Assembly: GCA_013299105.1 (NCBI GenBank)
Contig: JAAFJY010000038.1
Coordinates: 1-64,000, forward strand
Direction of reading: 5' to 3'
From: Chitinophagales bacterium
GTDB taxonomy: Bacteria; Bacteroidota; Bacteroidia; Chitinophagales; Saprospiraceae
DNA length: 64,000 nucleotides
Under the pieces are notes generated by a model, which saw nothing but the letters and a program-made list of their open reading frames with translations, was not told where the DNA came from and searched no databases. This document shows positions 10,263 through 23,785 of this stretch, in pieces. The stretch's first letter is position 1; every line of letters begins with the position of its first letter. A program made the translations under genes and the position numbers.

Positions 10263-11228
10263 TTGATCAAAGTCACCATTATAACTGGTTTCCTTGGAGC
10301 AGGCAAAACCACCTTGCTCAACCGCCTCATTGCACAATACCAAGATCGGCAATTGGCGATCATCGAAAACGAATTTGGGGCAGTTGGCATCGACAGCGAC
10401 CTGCTTGTGGCCCTTGACAAAGACGTGTTCGAACTCAGCAATGGCTGCATTTGCTGCACCCTCAATGGTGAATTGATCGATACCCTGGGCAAATTGCTCG
10501 CCCAGAAACGCCCCATTGAGCACCTCATCATCGAAACCACAGGCATCGCAGAACCTGACAGCATTGCCGCCGCTTTTCTGAGCGATCCGGCCATTCAATC
10601 GGCCTTTCAACTGGATGGAGTGATTTGTTTGGTAGACGCCATCAACCTGGCTGATGCCCTGGACGACAGTCCCAGCGCCCATCGTCAAATTACTTTCGCC
10701 GATGTGTTGATCTTGAACAAAGTTGCCGAAGTACACTCCAATCACCTCCTGGAATTGAAGACAAGACTGGCTGAAATGAACCCCTTGGCCGAGCTTTTGG
10801 AGGCCAATAAAGGCGAGTTTACAGGCCAAAACCCCGATTTGCTCCAGCTAAATGCCTACCAGAATCAAAACTTAGAGGCCAAAATTCAAGCGCTTTCCAT
10901 AGATACCAGCTCCGCCAAGCACCCGGGCGTCAAAGCCCATACTTTTCAATTCGAATGGCCTTTTGATTTCCTTAAATTCATGCACTGGAGCAGGGTTTTG
11001 CTGCTGATCCAAGGGCAAAACATCTACCGCATCAAGGGCATCCTCGACCTGGGGCCAGATGAAGCCCAAAAAATGACTTTCCAATCGGTGCGGGGCCAGG
11101 CTGCTTTTTCACGTGGCAGCGAATGGACAACGATTGAACCTCGCAAGTCGAAGATTGTGGTCATTGGGAAAGATTTGAAAAGAGAGATGTTGGAGAAGGC
11201 TTTGAGGTCTTGTTTTAAAAATGTCTGA
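10263..11228 (+). CDS. COG0523 (CobW/YjiA-type) GTP-binding protein
   Basis: This 321-aa G3E GTPase is a metallochaperone or metal-insertion type. Walker A GFLGAGKTT is at residues 9-17. The family metal-binding motif GCICC gives C62, C64 and C65. The guanine-specificity motif is LNKVAE, and a C-terminal CobW_C domain follows from about residue 220. It opens with TTG (10263); no nearby in-frame ATG precedes the Walker motif, so the rare start is well supported. The target metal or protein is not shown, as no Zur-like site, cobalamin gene or nitrile hydratase is near. Probably co-transcribed with yhhQ. Confidence 0.88.
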   Translation: MIKVTIITGFLGAGKTTLLNRLIAQYQDRQLAIIENEFGAVGIDSDLLVALDKDVFELSNGCICCTLNGELIDTLGKLLAQKRPIEHLIIETTGIAEPDSIAAAFLSDPAIQSAFQLDGVICLVDAINLADALDDSPSAHRQITFADVLILNKVAEVHSNHLLELKTRLAEMNPLAELLEANKGEFTGQNPDLLQLNAYQNQNLEAKIQALSIDTSSAKHPGVKAHTFQFEWPFDFLKFMHWSRVLLLIQGQNIYRIKGILDLGPDEAQKMTFQSVRGQAAFSRGSEWTTIEPRKSKIVVIGKDLKREMLEKALRSCFKNV

Positions 11229-11803: not shown

Positions 11804-12571
11804 TCACCGCTCTTCTAGCCACTTCAAAAAAGCACCTGCTTTTTCTTTGCTTACTTTCAATTGTTCAGGCATTTTCAAACAAGGCACGACCAAAAGTTTG
11901 CGCGCTGAATCGTGTTCTACATGTTTGATGGCTTTGTAGTTGACAATGAATTGTCGGTTGAGGCGGTAAAATAGTTGTTGATCAAGGGCCTGTTCAATGT
12001 CTTCAAGTGAATGTGGGTAGTAGTACTCTTCTTGCTGAAAAGTACGCAAGTATGTAGCTCCTCCAATCAGGTAAAAGGCAGCAATGTCCTGGACCGCCAA
12101 GGGTAGGTATTTGTCTTGAAAAGGTACCAATACGCTGGTTTTGGCTTTTTTATTCAATGCAGCAAATGTTTCGTGGTAATTTTGCTGGATATTGACTTGA
12201 TTTTGGGCATAATGCACTTGTAAACGCTTGGATTTTTCCAAAGCGCGTTCAATAGAAACCCGATCAAAGGGTTTCAACACATAATCAATCCCATTAGTTT
12301 GAAAGGCTTTCACTGCATATTCGTCATAAGCGGTGCAAAACACCACCGGGCTTTCGACTTTCACTTCCTCAAAAATGTCGAAGCTAAGCCCATCAGCTAG
12401 TTGAATGTCCATAAAAATTAGGCTAGGAGTTGGATTGGCTTTCAACCAGTTGATTGCCCCCTGCACAGTGTCGATGATGCGCAGGATTTCTAGTCCTGGG
12501 TCGATTTCTTTGAGCGTATTTTGTAGATAAACAGCAGTAATAGGTTCGTCCTCAACGATCAGGATTTTCAT
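11804..12571 (-). CDS. LytTR-family response regulator
   Basis: This 255-aa regulator has a receiver domain (residues 1-115) with phospho-acceptor D55 in FMDIQLADG and the acidic pair E7-D8, followed by a C-terminal LytTR DNA-binding domain (about 150-250, with YYPHSLEDIEQAL and RLNRQFIVNYKAI). It is the partner of the kinase directly upstream (12-bp gap). Both follow the carbonic anhydrase at 17 bp and a SulP transporter, so all four are likely one operon. This makes control of inorganic-carbon genes a reasonable inference. Start ATG at 12571. Confidence 0.93.
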   Translation of the reverse strand: MKILIVEDEPITAVYLQNTLKEIDPGLEILRIIDTVQGAINWLKANPTPSLIFMDIQLADGLSFDIFEEVKVESPVVFCTAYDEYAVKAFQTNGIDYVLKPFDRVSIERALEKSKRLQVHYAQNQVNIQQNYHETFAALNKKAKTSVLVPFQDKYLPLAVQDIAAFYLIGGATYLRTFQQEEYYYPHSLEDIEQALDQQLFYRLNRQFIVNYKAIKHVEHDSARKLLVVPCLKMPEQLKVSKEKAGAFLKWLEER

Positions 12572-12583
12572 GTGCTTCTTTTT

Positions 12584-13624
12584 TTACCCTATCAAAGGTT
12601 CAGTCCCATTGGAAATGATTGGCAAACTGACCGAAAAAAACAAATCCGATTGCTCAATATTGATCCCGCGCCCACAGAGCAATTTATAGCGTTGGTCAAT
12701 ATTAGGTAAACCAATGCCAGTTGAGGTGCTGGTCGAGCGCTTAGGCTGTCGGTTGTTGCGCACTTCAATGGCTTGTTGATCAGGTTTCCATTCAATCCAG
12801 ATATGCAATGGATTTTCGCTTGACACTACATTGTGCTTTACCGCATTTTCCACCAACAACTGCAAAGTCAAAGGCGGCATAATGCGAGGATACAACGCAT
12901 TAGGGATATTAAGGTGGAGGTTGAAATTGTCTTGAAACCTGGCTTGAAGCAGATAGGAATACGCTTTCAGCATGCTCAATTCTTGCTCCAAAGTCACCTT
13001 GTTTTCCTGGCTATTCTGCAGCAAGTAACGATAAACTTCTGACAGTTGAACCACGAAATTGCCCGTTTCAGGGTGCTTTAATTGCACAAAAGAACGCAAA
13101 GTGTTCAGTGCGTTGAATAAAAAGTGAGGATTGACCTGCTGTCTGAATACATCGAGTTGGGCTTGGACATTTTCTTCTCTTAGCCGCAAGTTTTCTACTT
13201 CCATTTGCCGGTTTTGATACACGGCACTGATGCTATAAAACAATACTTGAATGATGGCAGTGATCAACAAGCCTCTAATCACAAAATAAAACAGTGGCCC
13301 TGTTTCTTCATTGATTGCGCTGAACACGAGTAACTCGATAACGACAGCCAATACTACCCCCACAAAAACCGAGATGCTGGTTTTCCAGATTTGTTCGTAG
13401 CGCTTATTACCACTGGAAAATTTGTTGAATAGTGGCTTTCTGCGATCAAGCCAAAAGCTAATCGCCCAAATTAGCCCCGCGTAAGTCATCAGCACCAGTA
13501 GATCTGCAAGCCTGTGCAAAAGATCAATGTAATCATGCCTTGTTTCGCGTAATAGCACAAACAAGAAAGTGATGATTAAAGTGGCCCAAAAAGCCAGTCT
13601 ACGAAATAGGTATTTGAAATCCAA
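12584..13624 (-). CDS. LytS/YehU-type sensor histidine kinase
   Basis: This 346-aa membrane kinase has four predicted transmembrane segments (about residues 10-27, 42-58, 83-102 and 113-132), a short coiled coil, then a His_kinase domain with the phospho-acceptor His in QQVNPHFLFNALN (H167). The HATPase domain has N-box LLVENAVKHN and G-box GIGLPN. There is no extracytoplasmic sensor domain, so sensing probably involves the membrane part. The start is TTG (13624), 17 bp after the carbonic anhydrase stop; no ATG fits. It pairs with the LytTR regulator downstream. Confidence 0.92.
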   Translation of the reverse strand: MDFKYLFRRLAFWATLIITFLFVLLRETRHDYIDLLHRLADLLVLMTYAGLIWAISFWLDRRKPLFNKFSSGNKRYEQIWKTSISVFVGVVLAVVIELLVFSAINEETGPLFYFVIRGLLITAIIQVLFYSISAVYQNRQMEVENLRLREENVQAQLDVFRQQVNPHFLFNALNTLRSFVQLKHPETGNFVVQLSEVYRYLLQNSQENKVTLEQELSMLKAYSYLLQARFQDNFNLHLNIPNALYPRIMPPLTLQLLVENAVKHNVVSSENPLHIWIEWKPDQQAIEVRNNRQPKRSTSTSTGIGLPNIDQRYKLLCGRGINIEQSDLFFSVSLPIISNGTEPLIG

Positions 13625-13641
13625 ACCAATCAGTATTGTGC

Positions 13642-14280
13642 CTAAAGGTCATCATACTCATAAATATGATCAATATGGGTACCTGGATGCATGTCACAAA
13701 TTGGCTTCAATATACCATTATTTAAACCATAAACCCAACCGTGTAGGTGTGGGCGCTGATCATATTTCCAGGCTTTTTGTACAATGGAGGTTTTCGCCAG
13801 GTTTAATACTTGCTCCTGCACATTCAACTCTACCATTCGATTTACCCTTTCTTCTTCTTCTTCAATTTCCAATAATTCCTGTTCGTGAATCCGATAAACG
13901 TCTTTGATGTTGCGTACCCACTTGTTGATAATACCGAGATTGTGGTGCCCCATTGCGGCTTTGACTCCACCACAGCCATAGTGTCCGCAGACAATAATAT
14001 GCTTGACATGTAAGTGTTCAACAGCATATTCCAGTACGCTAAGCAGGTTAAAGTCAGTATGCACCACCATATTGGCGATGTTCCGTTGTACAAATATTTC
14101 ACCAGGTTGGGTCCCCGTTATTTCGTTAGCAGGGACACGGCTATCGCTGCACCCAATCCAAAGAAATTCAGGCGTTTGAATTTTTGCCAACCGGTTGAAA
14201 TAGTCGGGATCTTCCTCCACTTTTTCATGGGCCCAAGCCTTATTTTCTAGCAACAGTTTTTCAAAAGAACGCATAGACAT
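13642..14280 (-). CDS. Beta-class carbonic anhydrase
   Basis: This 212-aa enzyme interconverts CO2 and bicarbonate. The zinc ligands of the beta class are plain: C44 in GCSDSR, and H100 and C103 in CGHYGCGG. The D46-R48 dyad is also present. Start taken at the ATG at 14280 (MSMRSFEKLL); an upstream extension lacks family similarity. It follows a SulP transporter by 83 bp and precedes the kinase by 17 bp. A carbonic anhydrase next to a SulP transporter and opposite DabAB points to bicarbonate/CO2 supply. There is no signal peptide, so it is probably cytosolic. Confidence 0.95.
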   Translation of the reverse strand: MSMRSFEKLLLENKAWAHEKVEEDPDYFNRLAKIQTPEFLWIGCSDSRVPANEITGTQPGEIFVQRNIANMVVHTDFNLLSVLEYAVEHLHVKHIIVCGHYGCGGVKAAMGHHNLGIINKWVRNIKDVYRIHEQELLEIEEEEERVNRMVELNVQEQVLNLAKTSIVQKAWKYDQRPHLHGWVYGLNNGILKPICDMHPGTHIDHIYEYDDL

Positions 14281-14363
14281 TTTATTTTGACGGACTACAA
14301 AAGCCAACAAGTTTGAATTGGAAACGGACCTTTGCAGCCACGAATGAACACATGAAAATGAAA

Positions 14364-15932
14364 CTACACCATTATCCTTTGTTGGGTATCAGTGAAAATA
14401 GGTTGGTTTTCCGATTTACCAGGTTTGACGTACACCCGGATACCACGAATCTCGGCATTGACGATGAAGTCATTGACCATTTCAATGATGTCGCGATCGA
14501 TAAAATCGGATCGGGAAGGATCTAGCAAGACCGCTGAGTTGTCTGGAATTTTCAACAAAGCTTGTTTGAGGTAAGCTTTGTTCATGAAAGAAACTTCCTT
14601 TTTAAACCTAACCAGGTAACGTTGCTCGTCCTTGGTAATGGTGATTGCCGAATGAAAATTGCTCTTCAACACAAAGTACAGGCCACTGATGATGCCGATG
14701 CAAATGCCAATCAGCAAGTCAGTGAGCAAAATGGCCACAATGGTGATGATAAAGGGTAAGAACTGGTCCAAGCCCTTCTTCCAATATTCTTTGAACAGAG
14801 ATATTTTAGCAAGCTTATATCCTGTAAAAATCAAAATCCCTGCCAACGCTGCTTTAGGAATCATATTCAAAACAGTTGGGATAAACAGCACGGATAGCGA
14901 AAGCAGAATACCATGATACATCGCAGACCACTTACTTTGTGCACCAGCAGCAACATTGGCACTGCTTCTCACGATGACTGAAGTAACTGGTAGGCCTCCT
15001 AAAAGACCGGAAACAATATTACCTACCCCTTGGGCTTTCAATTCTTGATTGGTTGGGCTGATGCGTTTTTGGGTATCCAATTTATCCACTGCTTCCAAGC
15101 TCAACAAGGTTTCTAAACTGGCCACCAAAGCCAACGTTAAACCACTGATCCAAACCTGAAGATTGACCAAGCCCTGGAAATTAGGGAAGTACAGGCTACG
15201 AAAAAAATCAACTGGACTGGAGGTAATGGGAATGTCAACCAAGTGATCTCCACCTAAAGTTTTGCTGTGGTCTTGTAGATCGAACAAATGATTGATCAAA
15301 ACGCCAGTCATTACCACAACCAAAGGACCGGGTATCAATTGTAAAAACTTGGACTTTTTGAAAAAACTGGTTTCGTAAATTGCCAAAATAAGCAATGATA
15401 CCACCCCGATGATGATCGCGGTGGGAGCCAGGTAATTCAAGGACAAGAAAATTTCTGAAAAAGTGTTTTGACCATCAATTTGAAAAAAAGACTCATCTCC
15501 TTCAGGATCTTTATCAAAGCCTACTAAGTGTGGCAATTGTTTGAGAATTAAGATAATACCAATGGCTGCGAGCATCCCTTTGATTACAGCATTGGGAATG
15601 AATTCACCAATGATACCGGCTTTCAAATAGCCCAGGATTACTTGTAGAACGCCACAAATGACCACACTAATCAAAAAGAATTCGAAGGAAGGCAAAAGTG
15701 CCAGAGCACTAGCTACAATAGCGGTAAGGCCAGCTGCGGGACCACTTACGCTCAATTGCGAGCCAGATATTGCTCCTACTACAATGCCGCCGGCAATGCC
15801 AGCGACGATTCCGCTGATGGCTGGCGCTCCAGAAGCCACTGCAACACCGATACAAAGAGGCAGAGCGACTAAAAATACTACGACTGAAGCAGGAAGGTCC
15901 TGCCCCAGGGTTTTTAATGGGTTGGATTTCAT
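14364..15932 (-). CDS. SulP-family anion transporter (first, possible bicarbonate carrier)
   Basis: This 522-aa inner-membrane carrier belongs to the SLC26/SulP family. About a dozen hydrophobic segments include the family regions VALPLCIGVAVASGAP and GSQLSVSGPAAGLTAIV near the N terminus. A cytosolic STAS-like tail follows (about 445-522, with LLDPSRSDFIDRDIIEMV). Bacterial SulP proteins carry sulfate, bicarbonate (BicA) or carboxylates. Linkage to beta-carbonic anhydrase and DabAB favours bicarbonate here; this is an inference. Start ATG at 15932. The repeat element copy B sits in its upstream region. Confidence 0.92.
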   Translation of the reverse strand: MKSNPLKTLGQDLPASVVVFLVALPLCIGVAVASGAPAISGIVAGIAGGIVVGAISGSQLSVSGPAAGLTAIVASALALLPSFEFFLISVVICGVLQVILGYLKAGIIGEFIPNAVIKGMLAAIGIILILKQLPHLVGFDKDPEGDESFFQIDGQNTFSEIFLSLNYLAPTAIIIGVVSLLILAIYETSFFKKSKFLQLIPGPLVVVMTGVLINHLFDLQDHSKTLGGDHLVDIPITSSPVDFFRSLYFPNFQGLVNLQVWISGLTLALVASLETLLSLEAVDKLDTQKRISPTNQELKAQGVGNIVSGLLGGLPVTSVIVRSSANVAAGAQSKWSAMYHGILLSLSVLFIPTVLNMIPKAALAGILIFTGYKLAKISLFKEYWKKGLDQFLPFIITIVAILLTDLLIGICIGIISGLYFVLKSNFHSAITITKDEQRYLVRFKKEVSFMNKAYLKQALLKIPDNSAVLLDPSRSDFIDRDIIEMVNDFIVNAEIRGIRVYVKPGKSENQPIFTDTQQRIMV

Positions 15933-16127
15933 CTACGCTGTGTTGGCAAAAGTTTGGCCGGATGTTGAGGTCTTTTGTAGCCTAAACAGGGAACACCAAG
16001 GTCTTTTGCTAAAAAATAGCATTACTTTTATTGTAAAAAGCAACGAACAACTCAAATGTAAGTACTATTTTGTCAAAAAACCTACAGCGGAAAGCGATTT
16101 AACAATTTTTTTTGGTCATATCGGCAT

Positions 16128-16270
16128 CTGAGTATTTGAGCCAAAAAAAATGGACGTATTTGCTTTTGAAGTTTAGCAAAAAAAAAAGAACAAAGCTTCC
16201 TTTCATCCAGTTGTTTATCTTTTTTCACTAAACCCAAATCCGTCCACCTTATTTTTTTACGCTCCCTAAG
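16128..16270 (-). mobile_element. Palindromic MITE-like element, copy B
   Basis: Read on the minus strand it goes from TTAGGGAGCGTAAAAAAATA through GGTTTAGTG to GGCTCAAATACTCAG. The ends and inner blocks pair as one long imperfect hairpin. It fills most of the 15933-16276 gap between the DUF2490 gene and the first SulP gene. Confidence 0.85.
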
Positions 16271-16276
16271 CAAGTT

Positions 16277-17062
16277 CTACTTTGCTCCAAAGTTTACGTT
16301 CTGCAAAATGGAGAGGTGGAAAATGTTGTTTTTCGCATTAGGGGCCGTTTTTGTATGTAAATACTGGTTCATGTAGCCAAGTTCGTAACGGGTATGCTTG
16401 CTCGTCCATACTCCCAGGGCTAAAAGCAAACGGTTTTGGTCAAAAAAATGGGGATTGATTTCCTCAGCACCAAAATTGAGGAACACTTCATCTTGGAGCG
16501 CAAAGTAAAGGATGTTCTTTTTTTCCAAATCAGACAAGTTAAAGACTGTACGATTGAAATATCGGAACCGGTTGCCGTAAAAATCATTCAAGCGATTGAT
16601 CTGGTTGTTTTCTGACACCAAGTGTCCCACAAAACGTTGTTCGAGGCGAAAGCGCTCAGTCATGGTAATGCGCTCGTTCAAAGTATGGTTGACTAGCAAT
16701 TGCTCCCAGAGGCGATTCTCTGGAACGTAAGCATTCAATCCTTTGTTGTAGGAATGAATATCCGCAAAACCCAGCGTAATACTTGTATTTTTGCCCGGGT
16801 AATATTGCAAACCCGAACGCAGCAAAGTCTGGTTGGCTCTGGCAGCCTCACCATCCATGCGAAATTGCATATCAAGGTGCATGCCCCATTTTGGGGTGAA
16901 CTTGTATTGCCCAAAGTAAGTAAACCAATTGCCTTGATTGACTGCTGTTTTCTGGGCAGCCAGATTGCTGGTGTTGAAAAAAAATAAAACCAGCAAAAAT
17001 AAGGGCATAAGAATAGTACCCGCGCTACGGAAGCACAGCAGGAAATGCTTTTGAGATGCCAT
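16277..17062 (-). CDS. DUF2490-family outer-membrane protein
   Basis: This 261-aa exported protein has a signal peptide (hydrophobic segment 14-36, cleavage near LAAQ) followed by alternating amphipathic strands. Examples are WGMHLDMQFRM, YYPGKNTSITLGFADIHSYN and TRYELGYMNQYLH, typical of DUF2490 beta-barrels. Its role is not known for the family. Placed between two SulP genes, it could be the outer-membrane passage for the anion they carry, which is an inference. Start ATG at 17062, 71 bp after the upstream SulP stop, with a fragment of the palindromic repeat in the gap. Confidence 0.82.
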   Translation of the reverse strand: MASQKHFLLCFRSAGTILMPLFLLVLFFFNTSNLAAQKTAVNQGNWFTYFGQYKFTPKWGMHLDMQFRMDGEAARANQTLLRSGLQYYPGKNTSITLGFADIHSYNKGLNAYVPENRLWEQLLVNHTLNERITMTERFRLEQRFVGHLVSENNQINRLNDFYGNRFRYFNRTVFNLSDLEKKNILYFALQDEVFLNFGAEEINPHFFDQNRLLLALGVWTSKHTRYELGYMNQYLHTKTAPNAKNNIFHLSILQNVNFGAK

Positions 17063-17096
17063 ATGTGAATGGTTAACAGGTCTGAATCAGCCTGGT

Positions 17097-17140
17097 GAGG
17101 GAGCGTAAAAAAACAAGTACATTAGATTTGGGTTTACTTC
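17097..17140 (+). repeat. Fragment of the palindromic MITE-like element
   Basis: GAGGGAGCGTAAAAAAACAA followed by TTTGGGTTTA matches the first ~42 bp of the ~140-bp element. The rest is absent, and the fragment runs into the end of the SulP gene. Confidence 0.6.
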
Positions 17141-18723
17141 GATTTCTTAAGCGCGGCAAACGGGTGATCTGATACGGGTTTGTGGTTGACCAAAGCTTCC
17201 ATTATCATTTTACCCCCGCTCTGTTGGAACTCTCTCTGTAAATGGTGAAGGTTTTCCATCACCGTGTGGTCTACATAATAAGTGTTGTTGGCGTCGATCA
17301 CCACTTGAGCTTCTTTGGGTAGTTTTTCCAAGGTCTTCTTGATCCCCAAATAATTGCTAAAAACACCTGCACCATTGATTTTCAGTAGGTATTGTCCATT
17401 TTCATATTTCATCTCGGTATCAGCCCGGAACAGGTTCTTCAGTGGCACACCATTGATCAATTCGATTGCCAACTTCAGTGCAATTCCTGCACCAATGCCG
17501 ATGAGCAAGTCAGTAGCAAGGGTAACGATGATCGTGACCATAAAAATGGCCAATTGCTCCCTACCAATGTGCCACATATGGGCAAATTCTTTGGGATTGG
17601 CCAGGCGAAACCCTACATAGATCAACATTGCTGCCAGCGAGGCCATTGGGATCATTTTGATAATGGGGGTAAGGGCTAAAACAAAAATCAATAAAAAGAC
17701 CCCATGAAAAAAGTTGGCCCAGCGGCTCTGACCACCGTTGTTGATATTGGCCGAGCTACGCGCTACTTCCGAGATCATCGGCAAACCGCCCAATAACCCC
17801 GATGCCATGTTGCCAAGCCCAACGGCAAATAAGTCTTTGCTCAGGTTACTTTTATTTTGTTTTGGATCCAGAATATCAATAGCCTTACCTGTTAACAGAG
17901 ACTCAAGGGAACCAATCAGTGCAAACATCAGCAGGTATTTCAGAAAAATGGGCAGTAAGTCACCTGTCATGCCCGCAAAACTGACGTTGAAGCCCAAGGC
18001 AAAATCCCCAGGGTTCACCAATGGTTTTACATCCGCATATTGTGCGCCATTCAAGCCCATTACTTGACCAAGGACCACGCCAACGATCAGTACAATCAGG
18101 GCCGGTGGGATTTTTTTAACGATCGGGTTGTTGATCTTAGGCATTCCAAAGAGGATAACCAGACTGATCAAACCAATGATCGCAATGGGTACGGTGGGAT
18201 GAGACAAACTATGCGGAACAAGCGCCAGCAATTCCAGTGGCTCTTTCCCTTTGGTCAGGGCTGGATTTACGCCCAGTGCCCAGTGAATTTGCTTGGACAT
18301 GATGATGATACCAATGGCCGCCAACATACCGTGCACCGCTGATAGAGGGAAAAAGTCAGAGAGTTTGGCCACTTTTAGCAAACCCAAAACAACTTGGATC
18401 GCGCCAGCAACCAAAACCACACCCAAGGCAAGCTTCCAACCCAATTCGTTGTTTCCACGGCCTAGTTCTTCAACCGCACCCGCTACAATAACTATAAGGC
18501 CAGCAGCCGGACCTTTGATGGTCAATTCAGAACCTGCTAATGGGGCAACCAACATGCCGCCAATAATTGCAGTAAGCACACCCATGATTGGCGGGAAGTT
18601 GCTGGCACCAGCGATACCTAAACACAATGGCAAGGCGATCAATGAAACCAAAAAACCAGAAAGTAAGTCTTTTGTCCAGTTTGTGCGGAAGCTTCCTATT
18701 TGTTTGCTTTGTTGACTTTCCAT
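17134..18723 (-). CDS. SulP-family anion transporter (second)
   Basis: This 529-aa paralogue of the SulP protein at 14364-15932 shares the N-terminal region ALPLCLGIAGASNFPP and SELTIKGPAAGLIVIVAG. About 12 membrane segments precede a C-terminal STAS domain (about 440-520, with VVIDANNTYYVDHTVMENL). The frame is open 87 codons further upstream, but those residues lack family character; MESQQSKQIG at the ATG 18723 is the natural start. It is the first minus-strand gene of the carbon island and diverges from dabA across a 580-bp AT-rich spacer. Substrate bicarbonate is inferred from context; sulfate cannot be excluded. Confidence 0.9.
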   Translation of the reverse strand: MESQQSKQIGSFRTNWTKDLLSGFLVSLIALPLCLGIAGASNFPPIMGVLTAIIGGMLVAPLAGSELTIKGPAAGLIVIVAGAVEELGRGNNELGWKLALGVVLVAGAIQVVLGLLKVAKLSDFFPLSAVHGMLAAIGIIIMSKQIHWALGVNPALTKGKEPLELLALVPHSLSHPTVPIAIIGLISLVILFGMPKINNPIVKKIPPALIVLIVGVVLGQVMGLNGAQYADVKPLVNPGDFALGFNVSFAGMTGDLLPIFLKYLLMFALIGSLESLLTGKAIDILDPKQNKSNLSKDLFAVGLGNMASGLLGGLPMISEVARSSANINNGGQSRWANFFHGVFLLIFVLALTPIIKMIPMASLAAMLIYVGFRLANPKEFAHMWHIGREQLAIFMVTIIVTLATDLLIGIGAGIALKLAIELINGVPLKNLFRADTEMKYENGQYLLKINGAGVFSNYLGIKKTLEKLPKEAQVVIDANNTYYVDHTVMENLHHLQREFQQSGGKMIMEALVNHKPVSDHPFAALKKSK

Positions 18724-19303
18724 GTTGATTAAAAATTTTGGATGAAGCAAGCGAAAGCAATTACAAGTTGTACTTTTGCGCAATTGTCTTTCGATGCCAC
18801 AAAGTTGAAGGGACTTGATAAATACTGTTTTGGCAATCTGCCCGCTTGAACCACGATTCTGTCCGGTTGAGGAGCACACCTTGAATAGGAAGTTTTTAGC
18901 AACGGCACTAAAGGGTTGAAAAAATTTACATAAAAAATTGATTGTCAATATTTTAAATAAATAAAACACGTAAATATTAATCAAAATCGAAGCCCCCTTA
19001 AATTTTCAAGAAAAATGGATTCAATTTTTGTCCGCTTTAGGTTTAAAAATGCCCGTTTCAATTTGAGCAAGGAGAAAAACAAAGTTGCCCTCTCGCTCCT
19101 ACTATTGGTCAAAAAAAACAAATAATTATCTCATTTACATAGATTAACAATTGATAAAACAATCAAAATCATTAAGAAAAAATTACCTTTCTCGATATTT
19201 TTATCCTACTTTCTGAATTAGGAGCTCGTAGTTAAAATCCGTAAATTTGTAGTGATTTTCTCAAAAAGCAAGTCACACCCGCAGCAATCTCAATTCCACT
19301 AAA
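18724..19303. promoter_or_regulatory. Divergent control region between SulP and DabA
   Basis: This 580-bp non-coding spacer lies between two divergent transcription units and is AT-rich, especially from about 18920 to 19200. It must hold both promoters. No strong palindrome or known operator stands out. A TAnnTTTG-type box is listed separately. Confidence 0.5.
19242..19249 (+). promoter_or_regulatory. Possible -7 box for dabAB
   Basis: TAAATTTG fits the Bacteroidota -7 consensus TAnnTTTG and lies 55 bp before the dabA start. No convincing TTG -33 element is seen at the usual spacing, so the call rests on the -7 match alone. Confidence 0.35.
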
Positions 19304-21904
19304 ATGCTGCTAATTTCTTTCTCCATGCGTGATTCAAATACTGATATACCATTCAATGGCGTACAACCAAACCATCCTTTTCTGGATGAACACATCGCCC
19401 CATTGAATCGCCAACGCGCTTTTGACGAGCACAAGGTTTTGCATGATCTCAAGCATTACCTTCCTGCCCAAGCCCCACTCAAAGACTTCATCCACCACAA
19501 TACCTTGCATGCTTTTCAAAGTAAGCCTTTCTTTGAAGGCTTGAACACTGCCTCTGAAATCTTTGGTTACAAGGTGCAATTGTCACTTGAAGAGTATCGT
19601 CAACTTTTCCAAGACAAACGCATCCGTGAAGATATGCTGCGCAAAGTAGTGATGGACCGTAAAGGCCCGGTTCTCAGCCCACTTTGGTTGAACAAATTGC
19701 TGAACGAGCCCCTTCCCAAAAAGCGCTCACCCCGCATTGGCATCCTGCGTTCACATTGGAAAAGGCAATTCAAAATTGACATGGACTCCTTGGTACACCC
19801 AACCCTGTTTCGGGTTTTAGGTGCTTACCTGGACCAAGGCATCTCGATGTGGAATTTCCCAGTTGGCGAAATGGGTTTTCTGGCAGCCATGCGAGAAATG
19901 GACATCAACAGCTATTTCAGCCTCCTCCAATCCAAAAGAGCGCGTAAGTTGTTGCGAGACAGTAAGCACTGCAGCATTGCCAATTTGCTCGAAATCCTGG
20001 TTTTTGACGAAAGCTTATACGAGCAATACTTGTTTGATCAACAATTTGCTCACCAGGGTTGGTCTGGTATGGTCTCTACGGTAGAAGACCAACCTGAAAC
20101 CATGATCGATCGCAAGAAGATTTCGCTACACGATGTGATCATTTTTGAGCTGTTATTGGAAATTGATGCCTTGGATACCCATTTTGGAGAAATTTGGTCC
20201 CCTCTCGGTCCAAAATTGAAAGCCAAACCAAGGGAATTATTTGCACCAGTACAGCAAAGTGACTTGCAAGAAGTACTGGAAATCTGGCAGGAGGTCTTTG
20301 AATGGAGCTACTACGACCAGGTATTGGCAGGGATTCAAATGAGCAAAAGCAAGCCCCCCAAAACAGATGAAAAAAGTTTGCAAGCCATGTTTTGTATTGA
20401 TGACCGGGAATGTTCACTGCGTCGCTACATCGAAAAACTGGACCCGCAAGCAGAGACCTTCGGCACCCCTGGTTTCTTTGGCGTAGAATTCTATTTCCAG
20501 CCGGAACATGCCAAATATTTGACCAAACTCTGTCCAGCACCAGTAACGCCTAAATTCCTAATCAAAGAACAAGGTGGCCAAGGCAAGGAGCAAAACGACA
20601 TCCACTTCAACAAAGGCACTTCTACGCTTTTAAGGGGTTGGCTGGCGTCCCAAACGCTGGGTTTCTGGGCAGCAATTCGACTGATTGGCAACATCTTCCG
20701 CCCTCAAATGAGCGCGACGATGGCTTCTTCCTTCCGTCAGATGGATCACCAATCGCAGCTCAGTATTGTAAATGAAAGCCCCGAACGCCACGAACACGGC
20801 CTGCAAGTAGGTTTTCAAATCAGCGAAATGGCCGATAGGGTTGAAGGGTTACTCAAAAGCATAGGCTTGGTGCATAATTTTGCACCAATCGTATATGTAG
20901 TTGGCCACGGCTCAAGCAGTGTCAATAATCCTCACTATTCGGCTTACGATTGTGGCGCTTGTTCAGGTCGGCCAGGTTCGGTCAATGCAAGGGTAATTTG
21001 CTTCATGGCCAACCATCCTGAAGTAAGGACCTTACTGCGAAAAAGAGGCATCGACATTCCCATCACTACCCAATTCATGGGTGGCCTGCACGATACTACC
21101 CGCGATGAGATTCAGTTTTTTGATGAAAAAGAATTGGCACCTATCAATCTCAACCACCACCAGCACAACCTTTCGGTATTCCAACAAGCCTTAGACCTCA
21201 ACGCCAAGGAACGCTCCCGTCGCTTTGAGTCGATCAACACCAATCAGCGCGAGGACAAGATTCACGAGCAAATCAAAATCCGTTCAGTTTCCGTCTTTGA
21301 ACCACGCCCCGAACTGAATCACGCGACCAACGCCTTGTGCATCGTGGGTCGCAGGTCTTTGTCGCAGGGTTTGTTCCTGGATCGCCGCTCCTTCCTGAAC
21401 TCTTTTGATTATCGGGTTGACCCAGAGGGCAAGTACCTGTTCAATATCCTCAAAGCAGTGGCTCCAGTGTGTGGCGGGATCAATTTGGAATACTTCTTCT
21501 CCAGGGTTGACAACAACAAGCTAGGGGCTGGCACCAAACTTCCCCACAACGTAATGGGCCTGATTGGTGTAGCCAACGGCATTGATGGCGATTTGCGCCC
21601 AGGTTTGCCCAGTCAAATGATCGAAGTACACGATCCGGTGCGGCTTTTGGTCATTGTCGAACACTATCCGCAAGTAATTTTGAACACCATCCAGCGCGAT
21701 GCCGCCACTTATGAGTGGTTCAAAAACCAGTGGGTGCGCCTAGCTTGTGTTGATCCTCAAACCCGCAGTACCATGATTTTTGATGGTACCCAAGAGCAGT
21801 TTAAGCCATATGAGCCGATTGCGAAAACACTGCAAACCGTTACAGATGTAGTGCCTGTGTTGCAACGCAATCCTGAAAATTTACCAGTTTATCTCATCGC
21901 TTAA
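19304..21904 (+). CDS. dabA: DabA, zinc subunit of the DAB inorganic-carbon transporter (DUF2309/UPF0753)
   Basis: This 866-aa protein belongs to the DabA/MpsB family, which with DabB makes a cation-gradient-driven CO2-to-bicarbonate pump at the inner membrane. The beta-carbonic-anhydrase-like site is complete: C364 and D366 in MFCIDDRECS, H535 in VVGHGSS and C550 in YDCGACSGRPG. The 15-residue H-to-C spacing is as in characterised DabA. Other family stretches are FIHHNTLHAF near residue 65 and TQFMGGLHDTTRDE. Start ATG at 19304; M8 (19325) is an alternative. dabB follows after 9 bp. In autotrophs the pair feeds carbon fixation; in heterotrophs (MpsAB) it supplies bicarbonate for carboxylases. 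Confidence 0.95.
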   Translation: MLLISFSMRDSNTDIPFNGVQPNHPFLDEHIAPLNRQRAFDEHKVLHDLKHYLPAQAPLKDFIHHNTLHAFQSKPFFEGLNTASEIFGYKVQLSLEEYRQLFQDKRIREDMLRKVVMDRKGPVLSPLWLNKLLNEPLPKKRSPRIGILRSHWKRQFKIDMDSLVHPTLFRVLGAYLDQGISMWNFPVGEMGFLAAMREMDINSYFSLLQSKRARKLLRDSKHCSIANLLEILVFDESLYEQYLFDQQFAHQGWSGMVSTVEDQPETMIDRKKISLHDVIIFELLLEIDALDTHFGEIWSPLGPKLKAKPRELFAPVQQSDLQEVLEIWQEVFEWSYYDQVLAGIQMSKSKPPKTDEKSLQAMFCIDDRECSLRRYIEKLDPQAETFGTPGFFGVEFYFQPEHAKYLTKLCPAPVTPKFLIKEQGGQGKEQNDIHFNKGTSTLLRGWLASQTLGFWAAIRLIGNIFRPQMSATMASSFRQMDHQSQLSIVNESPERHEHGLQVGFQISEMADRVEGLLKSIGLVHNFAPIVYVVGHGSSSVNNPHYSAYDCGACSGRPGSVNARVICFMANHPEVRTLLRKRGIDIPITTQFMGGLHDTTRDEIQFFDEKELAPINLNHHQHNLSVFQQALDLNAKERSRRFESINTNQREDKIHEQIKIRSVSVFEPRPELNHATNALCIVGRRSLSQGLFLDRRSFLNSFDYRVDPEGKYLFNILKAVAPVCGGINLEYFFSRVDNNKLGAGTKLPHNVMGLIGVANGIDGDLRPGLPSQMIEVHDPVRLLVIVEHYPQVILNTIQRDAATYEWFKNQWVRLACVDPQTRSTMIFDGTQEQFKPYEPIAKTLQTVTDVVPVLQRNPENLPVYLIA

Positions 21905-21913
21905 TCCCCAGTT

Positions 21914-23785
21914 ATGCTGACTTCAATATTGCCATTTTTTCTCTTGCTGCCACTCTTAGGCTATGTCATTAGCTTATTTATTCCGGCTAAGAATGAGACA
22001 TTTATCTCTAGGTTTGCCTTCGGCACTATGGGTTTGCACCTGTTCAGTAGTCTGGGATTTGTAGGTCTTTGGTTGAGCCGAGGTTTGCCTTCAATCAATT
22101 TGCGCGAATGGTCTTTATACAAAAACCCACATTACGATTTTTTCATTGCTTTTTACTTTGATCACATCAGTGCCGTGTACTTGCTAGTGGGTTCATTTTT
22201 AACCTTTCTGGTCACTTTGTACAGCCGCTATTATTTGCACCGCGAATCGGGTTACAAGCGCTTTTTCAATACCATTTTGTTCTTTTTCCTGGGTTACAAC
22301 CTGGTCATTTTATCCGGAAATTTGGAAACTTTGCTGATTGGTTGGGAAATTCTGGGCTTGTCGTCCTTTTTGTTAATTGCATTTTACCGCGATCGCTACG
22401 TACCTGTTAAAAACGCGGTCAAGGTGTTTTCGATTTATCGCATTGGCGACGTGGGTTTGATCCTAGCCATGTGGATGAGTCACCACTTGTGGCACGCCAA
22501 CATCACTTTCGCCCGTTTGAACAACTACGAGCTAGTCAGCGAACACTTGCAGCGCCATACCTTGATTGGTGTTTTTGTATCACTCATGATTTTAGTTTCT
22601 GCCGCTGCTAAATCGGCTCAATTGCCTTTTTCTTCCTGGCTACCCAGGGCGATGGAAGGCCCTACCCCATCGAGTGCTATCTTTTATGGTTCCTTATCGG
22701 TACACCTTGGGGTGTTTTTAATGCTGCGTACATTCCCGTTTTGGGAACACCAATTGTCGGTTCGTATCATGATTGGGTTGATGGGCTTGACCACCAGTTT
22801 CTTGGCGTCGGGCATCACCAGGGTACAGTCTTCGGTCAAAAGCCAAATTGCTTACGCCTCCATTGCCCAAATTGGCTTGATTTTTGTTGAAATTGCCTTC
22901 GGTTTGAACACCTTGGCCTTGATCCATTTCGCTGGCAATGCTTTCTTGCGTACCTATCAATTGTTGGTTTCTCCATCGGTGGTGAGCTACCTGATCCGCC
23001 AGCAATATTATCACTTTGTACCTCGCGTACCTGCTTTTGAAGGAAAATGGCCCAAGCGCTTCCGTTATACATTTTACACTTTTTGCCTCAAAGAAGGTAA
23101 CCTTGACGCTTTTATGTACCGCTACCTTTGGAATCCATTGAAGTTAGCGGGCAAACAATTCGATTATTTAACGGTTGATCGGGCTTTCTACATTTTCACT
23201 CCAATTTTCGTATTGGGATTTATGGCACAGTATTTTAATGCGCACCTGCCAGAACAGTTCAGCCACTACTTGCCCATTGGATTTTCATTGATTGGGCTCT
23301 TGTTGGTGCTCAAGGCATTTACCGAGCGACGTCGGGTAGAACTGAGCTGGACCCTGGTCATGATGAACCACTGCTGGGTGGCACTGGCCATATCCTTCAA
23401 CGAAAAAGTGACCATGCACCAAATTGGCTTGTACCTGAGTGGCATCTTGCTGGCGGGTTTTGCAGGCATCATCGTGCTGAAACGCTTGCGCAGGCTGGAA
23501 GGTGACATCGACCTCAACCGCTTTCACGGCAATTCTTACATCCATCCGCGCATCGCGCTGTGGTTTTTGCTGTGCAGTTTGGGCTTGTCGGGTTTCCCGA
23601 TTACCCCGGCTTTCATTGGCGAAGACCTTGTATTCAGCCATATCCATGCCAACCAGCTCACCCTCGCCTTCATTACGGCCCTGAGTTTGATCTTGGATGG
23701 CCTGGCGATCATTCGCATCTACGCCCGGGTATTCTTGGGGCCACATGTGAAATCGCAGTACGACATGGCTTATCGCTCATCCTGA
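21914..23785 (+). CDS. dabB: DabB, membrane subunit of the DAB transporter (NuoL-like)
   Basis: This 623-aa polytopic protein belongs to the proton-antiporter (NuoL/MrpA-like) family. Typical signatures are WEILGLSSFLLIAFYRDR with the conserved Glu, AAKSAQLPFSSWLPRAMEGP and TPSSAIFYGSLSVHLGVFL. About 14-16 membrane segments are expected. No other nuo, mrp or mnh gene is present and dabA precedes it by 9 bp, so it is DabB (MpsA) rather than complex I subunit L. It provides the ion-coupled energy for DabA. It is longer than many DabB proteins; the extra length is C-terminal membrane sequence. A strong terminator follows at 23874-23909. Confidence 0.93.
   Translation: MLTSILPFFLLLPLLGYVISLFIPAKNETFISRFAFGTMGLHLFSSLGFVGLWLSRGLPSINLREWSLYKNPHYDFFIAFYFDHISAVYLLVGSFLTFLVTLYSRYYLHRESGYKRFFNTILFFFLGYNLVILSGNLETLLIGWEILGLSSFLLIAFYRDRYVPVKNAVKVFSIYRIGDVGLILAMWMSHHLWHANITFARLNNYELVSEHLQRHTLIGVFVSLMILVSAAAKSAQLPFSSWLPRAMEGPTPSSAIFYGSLSVHLGVFLMLRTFPFWEHQLSVRIMIGLMGLTTSFLASGITRVQSSVKSQIAYASIAQIGLIFVEIAFGLNTLALIHFAGNAFLRTYQLLVSPSVVSYLIRQQYYHFVPRVPAFEGKWPKRFRYTFYTFCLKEGNLDAFMYRYLWNPLKLAGKQFDYLTVDRAFYIFTPIFVLGFMAQYFNAHLPEQFSHYLPIGFSLIGLLLVLKAFTERRRVELSWTLVMMNHCWVALAISFNEKVTMHQIGLYLSGILLAGFAGIIVLKRLRRLEGDIDLNRFHGNSYIHPRIALWFLLCSLGLSGFPITPAFIGEDLVFSHIHANQLTLAFITALSLILDGLAIIRIYARVFLGPHVKSQYDMAYRSS

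Follow-up and report, generated by a model that had tools for sequence, protein, structure and literature searches.

A probable inorganic-carbon acquisition locus of Saprospiraceae combining SulP carriers, DabAB, carbonic anhydrase and a predicted outer-membrane barrel

A 64,000-nucleotide stretch of the genome of a Chitinophagales bacterium of the family Saprospiraceae (GenBank assembly GCA_013299105.1, contig JAAFJY010000038.1, positions 1 to 64,000; hereafter, the window) contains, between positions 11,804 and 23,785, genes for both subunits of the DabAB complex, two anion carriers of the SulP family (SulP1 and SulP2), a beta-carbonic anhydrase (CA), and a DUF2490 protein. This island is probably a conserved modular locus for the acquisition of dissolved inorganic carbon (DIC), in which the carriers and DabAB would provide the transport. 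SulP genes recurrently adjoin DabAB in the relatives of this bacterium and, in four genomes, SulP2 and DabA are encoded in a single open reading frame (ORF).

Recurrent linkage of SulP and DabAB

We compared 79 DabA loci, namely, that of the window and 78 regions fetched from the class to which the bacterium belongs, out of a larger number of DabA places listed; one 4-kb contig (L100) was dropped from the locus set. By score and gene order, these loci split into two groups, and this split has a support of 1.0 in a FastTree tree that includes 78 of the 79 loci and the solved DabA2. In the clade of the window, 51 of the 66 loci have a SulP gene at a distance of at most 4 kb from DabA, compared with none of the 13 loci of the second, DAB2-like clade (Fisher test, 1.4e-7; the genomes are related, so that this and all other p-values given here are too small). 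Genes for CA and DUF2490 are present in 14 and 12, respectively, of the 66 stretches of the window's clade, and neither gene occurs in the 13 DAB2-like stretches.

The same association is apparent at the level of complete gene complements. SulP2 orthologues, defined as matches of at least 354 bits (the next match scored 321; at most five candidates per genome were scored), were detected in 27 of 298 genomes of the family, and a DabA match (at most three candidates scored per genome) was present in 25 of these 27 compared with 10 of the remaining 271 (Fisher test, 3.7e-26). The ten genomes with DabA but without SulP2 comprise seven with a DAB2-like DabA, two with a DabA of the window's clade (G419 and G532), and one that was not classified (G443). 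In the named loci, which are the best 80 of 523 and lean to close kin, SulP was counted anywhere in the fetched stretch, up to 10 kb on either side, and was found in 53, including those from Arcicella, Runella defluvii, Rudanella, Emticicia, Nitrosomonas, Candidatus Nitrotoga and Azotobacter chroococcum. The 66 clade loci and the 80 named loci (146 altogether) were reduced to 131 at 97% identity; in this non-redundant set, SulP and DabAB occur together in 94 loci, and the full set of SulP1, SulP2, CA and DabAB is rarer, with 8 loci, namely the window, G144, G557, Rudanella paleaurantiibacter, Runella defluvii, Arcicella rosea, and two metagenome bins.

A sequence-only reading of this stretch had regarded the union of both uptake routes and a possible porin in one locus as unusual and called for a comparison of gene order among relatives. 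For the two routes, the perceived rarity did not hold: most loci of this clade have a SulP gene near DabAB, and the presence of SulP (COG0659) near ybcC/nuoL operons was reported already in 2017 (PMC5700660, accessible part). As to gene order, the linkage of SulP with DabAB, and in a few loci the full set, does recur, but the exact layout of the window did not turn up in the four other genomes examined of its genus. In the clade C operons delineated with COGNAT in the 2017 study, ybcC (DabA) lies upstream of a nuoL homologue and SulP is frequent nearby, as in the window; the accessible part of that paper (PMC5700660) gives no fusion, outer-membrane barrel, carbonic anhydrase, two-component system or carbon role for clade C, and the word carbonic appears nowhere in its text.

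Natural fusions of SulP2 and DabA

In four genomes of the family, from two genera, SulP2 and DabA are joined in one in-frame ORF of 1391-1408 residues, in which the matched SulP2 and DabA stretches are separated by 13-21 residues and the DabA half retains the zinc-site residues. One of these fusions (in G410) sits on the single 7.5-Mb contig of a single-contig genome. The four fused DabA halves cluster together (support 0.988), and the four fused SulP2 halves group with the unfused SulP2 of G493 (98/93), so that a single fusion event, followed by a later change in G493, appears likely from these trees. Along with the clustering of the genes in one 12-kb stretch, the fusions suggest that the parts of the locus work as one inorganic-carbon machine. 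In the literature searched, with most subscription papers outside reach, we came across no description of a SulP2-DabA fusion, and none is named in the accessible parts of PMC13144422, PMC10880623, PMC5700660, PMC6689103, PMC8567241, PMC12859837, PMC8438413 and PMC9080137.

A DabA clade with a probably distinct ion path

The DabA gene of the window (19304..21904, plus strand; PF10070, 739 bits), the single DabA match in this genome, is followed on the same strand by the gene for the NuoL-like membrane subunit DabB (21914..23785; PF00361/PF00662). Residues C364, H535 and C550 of DabA, along with the dyad D366/R368, align with C351, H524, C539, D353 and R355 of the solved DabA2, the roles of which are taken from the accessible part of PMC13144422. 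Thus, the Cys-His-Cys ligands and the Asp-Arg dyad are all present, in agreement with the complete zinc site noted previously from the letters of the sequence. All five residues are retained in 65 of 65 members of the window's clade (the residue census omits the partial DabA of L129; one DAB2-like locus gave no DabB row, leaving 12 instead of 13).

The residues of the DAB2-type proton path (Glu444 in the finger of DabA and DabB H260, H343 and K347; PDB 9rd0) are, conversely, replaced in the proteins of the window. Replacement of Glu444 abolished the activity of DAB2 according to the accessible part of PMC13144422. In the window's clade, this glutamate is missing from all 65 DabA sequences (28 have Q, 18 have L, 6 have H and the rest have other residues), with Q450 at this position in the window according to two MAFFT alignments. 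An HMMER alignment alone had pointed to Arg459, 9 residues off, as the counterpart; that assignment was replaced after the two MAFFT alignments, and neither column contains Glu in the clade. Even among the DAB2-like proteins Glu444 is not universal, given that 5 of 13 rows have Ser. In DabB, the counterparts of H260, H343 and K347 are Tyr (65/65), Asn (64/65) and Arg (65/65), that is, Y258, N342 and R346 in the window. At the same time, the NuoL ion pairs Glu144/Arg175/Asp178/Lys229 are all present in 65 of 65 DabB proteins of the window's clade, including Glu144, which DabB2 has lost. These changes mark the whole clade, whether SulP-linked or not. With Glu444 absent, three proton-path residues of DabB changed and the NuoL ion pairs kept, the ion path of this clade is probably different from that of the solved DAB2.

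Gene order follows the same division. DabA precedes DabB in 141 of 141 paired loci of the window's clade, named loci included (5 more are unpaired or at an edge), and DabB precedes DabA in 12 of 12 paired loci of the DAB2-like clade (1 more is unpaired). Compared with the DabA2-DabB2 complex of chemolithoautotrophs (PDB 9rd0; PMC13144422, accessible part), the proteins encoded in the window share the zinc ligands, the Asp-Arg dyad, the NuoL-like DabB and the two-gene organization, but belong to the other clade, with opposite gene order, no Glu444, a preserved Glu144 ion pair, and a linked or fused SulP. The MpsAB system of Staphylococcus aureus (PMC6689103) resembles that of the window in that a DabAB homologue serves a heterotroph, but no SulP or barrel is named with MpsAB in the accessible part of that source.

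Two clades of SulP carriers

SulP1 (14364..15932) and SulP2 (ORF 17134..18984, with the likely start, by homology, at the ATG at 18723) are both encoded on the minus strand. Both contain the transport domain PF00916; there was no match to Pfam STAS at E 0.001, and the alignment with SLC26Dg extends to chain residue 468. In the phylogenetic tree, SulP1 (16 rows) and SulP2 (49 rows, three of which are longer kin) form separate clades, and a long branch cuts the two together from DauA, BicA, SLC26Dg, SULTR4;1, SLC26A11 and the third SulP of the genome; the split between the 65 rows of the SulP1/SulP2 side and six reference-containing rows is supported at 100/100, although the tree program flags the reference branches as long and several of the reference sequences are incomplete. 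The genome encodes three SulPs, two of them in the island, and the third groups with sulfate-type carriers. A grouping of the island SulPs with sulfate carriers, which the sequence-only reading had named as a result that would refute its proposal, did not occur: both clades lie apart from SULTR4;1, SLC26A11 and the third SulP.

Neither island SulP reaches the cut-off of any NCBIfam model listed; the BicA model gives 119 and 139 bits against a cut-off of 880. Helix 8 carries Glu in 16 of 16 SulP1 and 48 of 49 SulP2 sequences, as in SULTR4;1, SLC26Dg and DauA, compared with Asp in BicA, which we take to be the Na+ site of that carrier. Helix 10 carries Arg in all SulP1 (16/16) and SulP2 (49/49) sequences, as in SULTR4;1, SLC26A11 and DauA, compared with Gly in BicA, and the tenth-helix motif of SulP2 includes an extra Glu (46/49). 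Glutamate in the eighth helix is associated with proton coupling, and aspartate with sodium; on this rule, we would guess that carriage by SulP1 and SulP2 is proton-coupled. We dropped the assignment of these proteins as BicA orthologues because of the low model scores, the separate tree position and the different residues in helices 8 and 10. What the SulPs of the window have in common with BicA (PDB 6ki1), the cyanobacterial SulP bicarbonate carrier, is the SulP fold and the proposed uptake of bicarbonate.

A CA is present in all 10 SulP1-bearing DabA loci among the 79 loci compared, and SulP1-CA pairs are found in congeners of the bacterium as well (L214-L216). In one congener, the SulP1 gene is broken by an in-frame TAA (L215 1-2300; G606:C358). 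Several SulP2 relatives are longer. In Candidatus Nitrotoga, SulP2 has about 720 residues (L285 14553-16721; L300 14663-16825), and that of L285 has a C-terminal TarH/four-helix-bundle ligand-binding domain by Pfam, so that this carrier may carry its own sensor. Kin of 734-759 residues in L193, L194, L195, L097 and L098 have about 200 extra C-terminal residues, with no extra Pfam domain in the two that were scanned (L193 and L097); in L097 and L098, these genes adjoin DabAB divergently.

An outer-membrane barrel slot beside SulP2

The DUF2490 gene (16277..17062, minus strand) lies 72 bases downstream of SulP2 and encodes a protein with a signal-peptide-like N-terminus that matches PF10677 with 146.8 bits against 29.8. 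The predicted structure (pLDDT 80) is a beta-barrel of 11 strands, presumably of the outer membrane, and its best fold matches are weak (autotransporter barrels and the NanC porin, TM 0.44-0.49); the model lends some support to the earlier suggestion of a possible porin. Clustering of unassigned neighbours revealed a second barrel family, of about 450 residues and secreted-looking, in 41 loci. Its representative has no Pfam match and is modelled as a porin (pLDDT 79), with OprO and OprP as the nearest solved structures (TM 0.51 and 0.52). OprO and OprP are anion porins, and the phosphate role of OprP is given in the title of its structure entry.

Among the 131 non-redundant loci, DUF2490 is present in 19 and the OprP-like porin in 36, and no locus contains both (1.3e-3 by chance; 7e-5 among the SulP loci). 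Among loci with full flanks, a barrel gene is present in 39 of the 69 that bear SulP, with the other 30 lacking a barrel of either kind, compared with 2 of the 22 without SulP (Fisher test, 6.6e-5). Of 41 porin cases, 34 have the barrel gene at most 400 bp downstream of SulP2 and 2 have it just upstream; for DUF2490, the corresponding numbers are 14 and 4 of 25 cases (counts that are not de-duplicated and include four DUF2490 cases from stretches without DabA). Given this position and a SulP2-DUF2490 pair in G524, a genome without a DabA match, the route across the outer membrane seems to be part of the SulP2 half of the locus. DUF2490 corresponds to TC 1.B.81, described in 2016 as a putative porin family whose functions are not established (PMC4827864, accessible part); the Pfam match and the predicted barrel agree with that description, and what distinguishes the present subgroup is its place beside SulP2. 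The accessible literature found on DUF2490 makes no tie to carbon uptake, and a barrel beside SulP or DabA was not found in the literature that could be searched.

Carbonic anhydrase and the use of bicarbonate

The CA gene (13642..14310, minus strand, PF00484; these are ORF coordinates, and translation may actually start some 30 bases further in) encodes an enzyme of the Can type that scores 253.4 bits against the NCBIfam PRK10437 model, with a cut-off of 251, and contains CSDSR (54) and GHYGCG (109), instances of CxDSR and GHxxCG, which we take to be the beta-CA motifs. It is the only PF00484 match of the genome; a search for alpha-CA produced no match, and gamma-CA and other CA classes were not searched. 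In several relatives, a distant beta-CA that scores 37-40 bits with that of the window lies between SulP1 and DabA (L061 11548-12228, L070 10295-10984 and L077 11261-11956; Pfam assigns those of L061 and L070 to Pro_CA), so that enzymes of no fewer than two subfamilies occupy the CA position. Pairs and fusions of SulP with carbonic anhydrase were reportedly described by Felce and Saier in 2004. A SulP-CA fusion is also noted in the accessible part of PMC6689103. In the window, SulP1 likewise adjoins a beta-CA, but the two are separate genes, and another SulP is linked with DabA.

In a check that the sequence-only reading had called for, the full 7.67-Mb genome (77 contigs) gave no match to the RuBisCO large subunit; other fixation routes were not searched. 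The same reading had proposed that the bicarbonate probably feeds anaplerotic or biosynthetic carboxylases. The locus lies in a heterotroph-like genome that contains a pyruvate-carboxylase-type PYC_OADA gene; PEP carboxylase has no match in the genome and was dropped as the main user of bicarbonate. Together, the missing matches and the pyruvate-carboxylase-type gene make use by heterotrophic carboxylases plausible. A gene for a GTPase of the CobW/COG0523 type, a family with zinc chaperones among its members, is located at 10263-11228 of the window, near the zinc-dependent CA and DabA.

The two-component system and the divergent layout

Searches against Pfam and NCBIfam recovered all the genes listed in the sequence-only reading where it had placed them, as well as a two-component pair within the same interval that it had missed: a LytTR-family response regulator (11804..12571, minus strand; PF00072 and PF04397) and a LytS/YehU-type membrane histidine kinase (12584..13624, minus strand; PF06580; about 4 hydrophobic segments by hydropathy). 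DabA and DabB are transcribed rightward, and SulP2, DUF2490, SulP1, CA, kinase and regulator leftward; the gaps are 17 bases between CA and kinase and 12 bases between kinase and regulator, and the leftward genes may form one unit. The two putative transcription units are separated by a divergent region of 580 bases (18724..19303, without assigned strand), which includes a -7-like element, TAAATTTG, at 19242 on the plus strand. One scan of this region, for 10-mers repeated at 20-23 bp with at most 1 mismatch, revealed no LytTR-like direct repeat.

Each of the three congeners with SulP2 has a kinase orthologue (319-343 bits, the next best 159) at a distance of about 0.4 to 8 kb from the SulP2 gene, and G419, a congener without SulP2, has none, an association that spans five genomes within the genus only. 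A likely orthologue of the regulator (251 bits) lies beside the kinase in the congeners G606 and G537. Other histidine kinase (HK) or response regulator (RR) matches near DabA comprise an RR alone in L062 (65 bits) and L232 (28 bits), an HK/RR pair at 67-69/37-38 bits in L127, L128, L129, L238 and L239 (congeners, some of them the same contig twice), a pair at 145/160 bits in the DAB2-like L131, two kinases (137 and 133) in L288, and, in a Spirosomataceae bin (L269 7856-9717), a LytS/LytTR pair that scores 171 and 207 bits with that of the window and lies directly upstream of DabA; such kinases are numerous, so that all these matches may be due to chance.

In one congener (L196 2173-9721, plus strand; G606:C74), hydrogenase-4/Ehr-like complex I-type genes, with members of PF00361, PF00346 and PF01058 and no NiFe cysteine motifs by eye, lie between the kinase and SulP2, and a GTP-type PEP carboxykinase gene (13310-15172) is located downstream of DUF2490.

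Proposed mechanism and alternative readings

Under the scheme that we favour, the DUF2490 barrel would admit anions to the periplasm and SulP2, in the inner membrane, would carry bicarbonate inward, while DabAB, held beside SulP2 even where the two are not fused, would use membrane energy for one-way hydration of CO2 to bicarbonate and would also recapture leaking CO2. SulP1 and the beta-CA, encoded on the same strand as SulP2, would be a second pair of carrier and interconverting enzyme. The bicarbonate would feed pyruvate carboxylase and other biosynthetic carboxylases rather than autotrophic fixation. The locus, which would take up both CO2 and bicarbonate, would thus have two arms, one consisting of the barrel, SulP2 and DabAB, and the other of SulP1 and CA. 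According to the accessible part of PMC8552792, MpsAB and CA rarely coexist in one species, and their co-expression slightly lowered growth; because CA beside MpsAB gave no benefit, the SulP1-CA arm is perhaps used at other times. The leftward unit, which includes the two-component system, may be switched separately from DabAB.

Several observations weigh against this scheme. In 15 of the 66 clade loci, a few of them at contig ends, no SulP is within reach, and two genomes with SulP2 (G524 and G493) have no DabA match, so that the coupling of SulP with DabA is not obligatory. In three draft congeners, DabAB, SulP2-DUF2490 and SulP1-CA either lie on separate contigs or are some 25 kb from one another; the layout of the window is a local merger, or else that of the congeners has split. 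The MpsAB results make a CA beside DabAB not obviously useful (PMC8552792, accessible part). SulP1 and SulP2 lie far from BicA in the tree. The genome contains 33 matches to kinases of the LytS type, and other HK or RR matches occur near DabA in 10 of 158 loci; with so many such genes, the link of the regulator to the locus is weak. Finally, to our knowledge, no SulP of either clade has a tested substrate.

The fusions can also be accommodated by a rather unlikely alternative, in which SulP2 would not be an independent carrier but would serve the DAB complex as its third membrane subunit, with anion or proton flow through SulP2 coupled to the hydration of CO2 by DabA. The four covalent SulP2-DabA fusions, and an ion path that, without Glu444 and with H260, H343 and K347 of DabB replaced but the NuoL ion pairs kept, is probably unlike that of DAB2, are in line with such a subunit, and the accessible part of PMC5700660 already describes SulP as a further membrane subunit in such operons. 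However, the residue changes extend to clade members without a nearby SulP, no SulP is in reach in 15 of 66 loci, and SulP2 with a barrel occurs in the DabA-less G524. A bolder extension, which we consider unlikely, is that the whole DabA clade represents an inner-membrane machine of DabA, DabB and SulP2 with a dedicated outer-membrane barrel, where SulP2 would be a working subunit and ion coupling would differ from that of DAB2.

That SulP1 and SulP2 move another anion, such as sulfate, chloride or a dicarboxylate, within a general island of anion and pH homeostasis in which DabAB and CA would serve pH control, is decidedly improbable. The Glu of helix 8 and Arg of helix 10 are indeed shared with SULTR4;1 and DauA rather than with BicA, and barrels of the DUF2490 and OprP-like types could admit many different anions, but the genome has another, third SulP that falls with the sulfate-type carriers, SulP1 and SulP2 recur with CA and DabA, and no sulfur-assimilation family is prominent among the 30 commonest neighbour clusters listed. 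An accidental gathering of individually useful genes, to which the separation of the pieces in three congeners could point, is disfavoured by the locus counts and the gene fusions, and we hold it to be very improbable.

DIC pumps have been studied mainly in autotrophs, and the window's DabA clade is common in Bacteroidota and is also present in records of Nitrosomonas, Nitrotoga and Azotobacter. On the bolder reading above, the pump would span the entire Gram-negative envelope, and we know of no other CO2 or bicarbonate pump for which this has been claimed. Our search found a single solved DabA sequence (9rd0 and two sister entries), which falls in the clade in which no SulP was seen, and the altered ion path of the window's clade bears on the open question of proton or sodium coupling (PMC13144422, accessible part). 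The natural SulP2-DabA fusion offers a single protein for purification in which anion carriage would be tied to CO2 hydration, and the barrel slot would give the DUF2490 family a first role to test.

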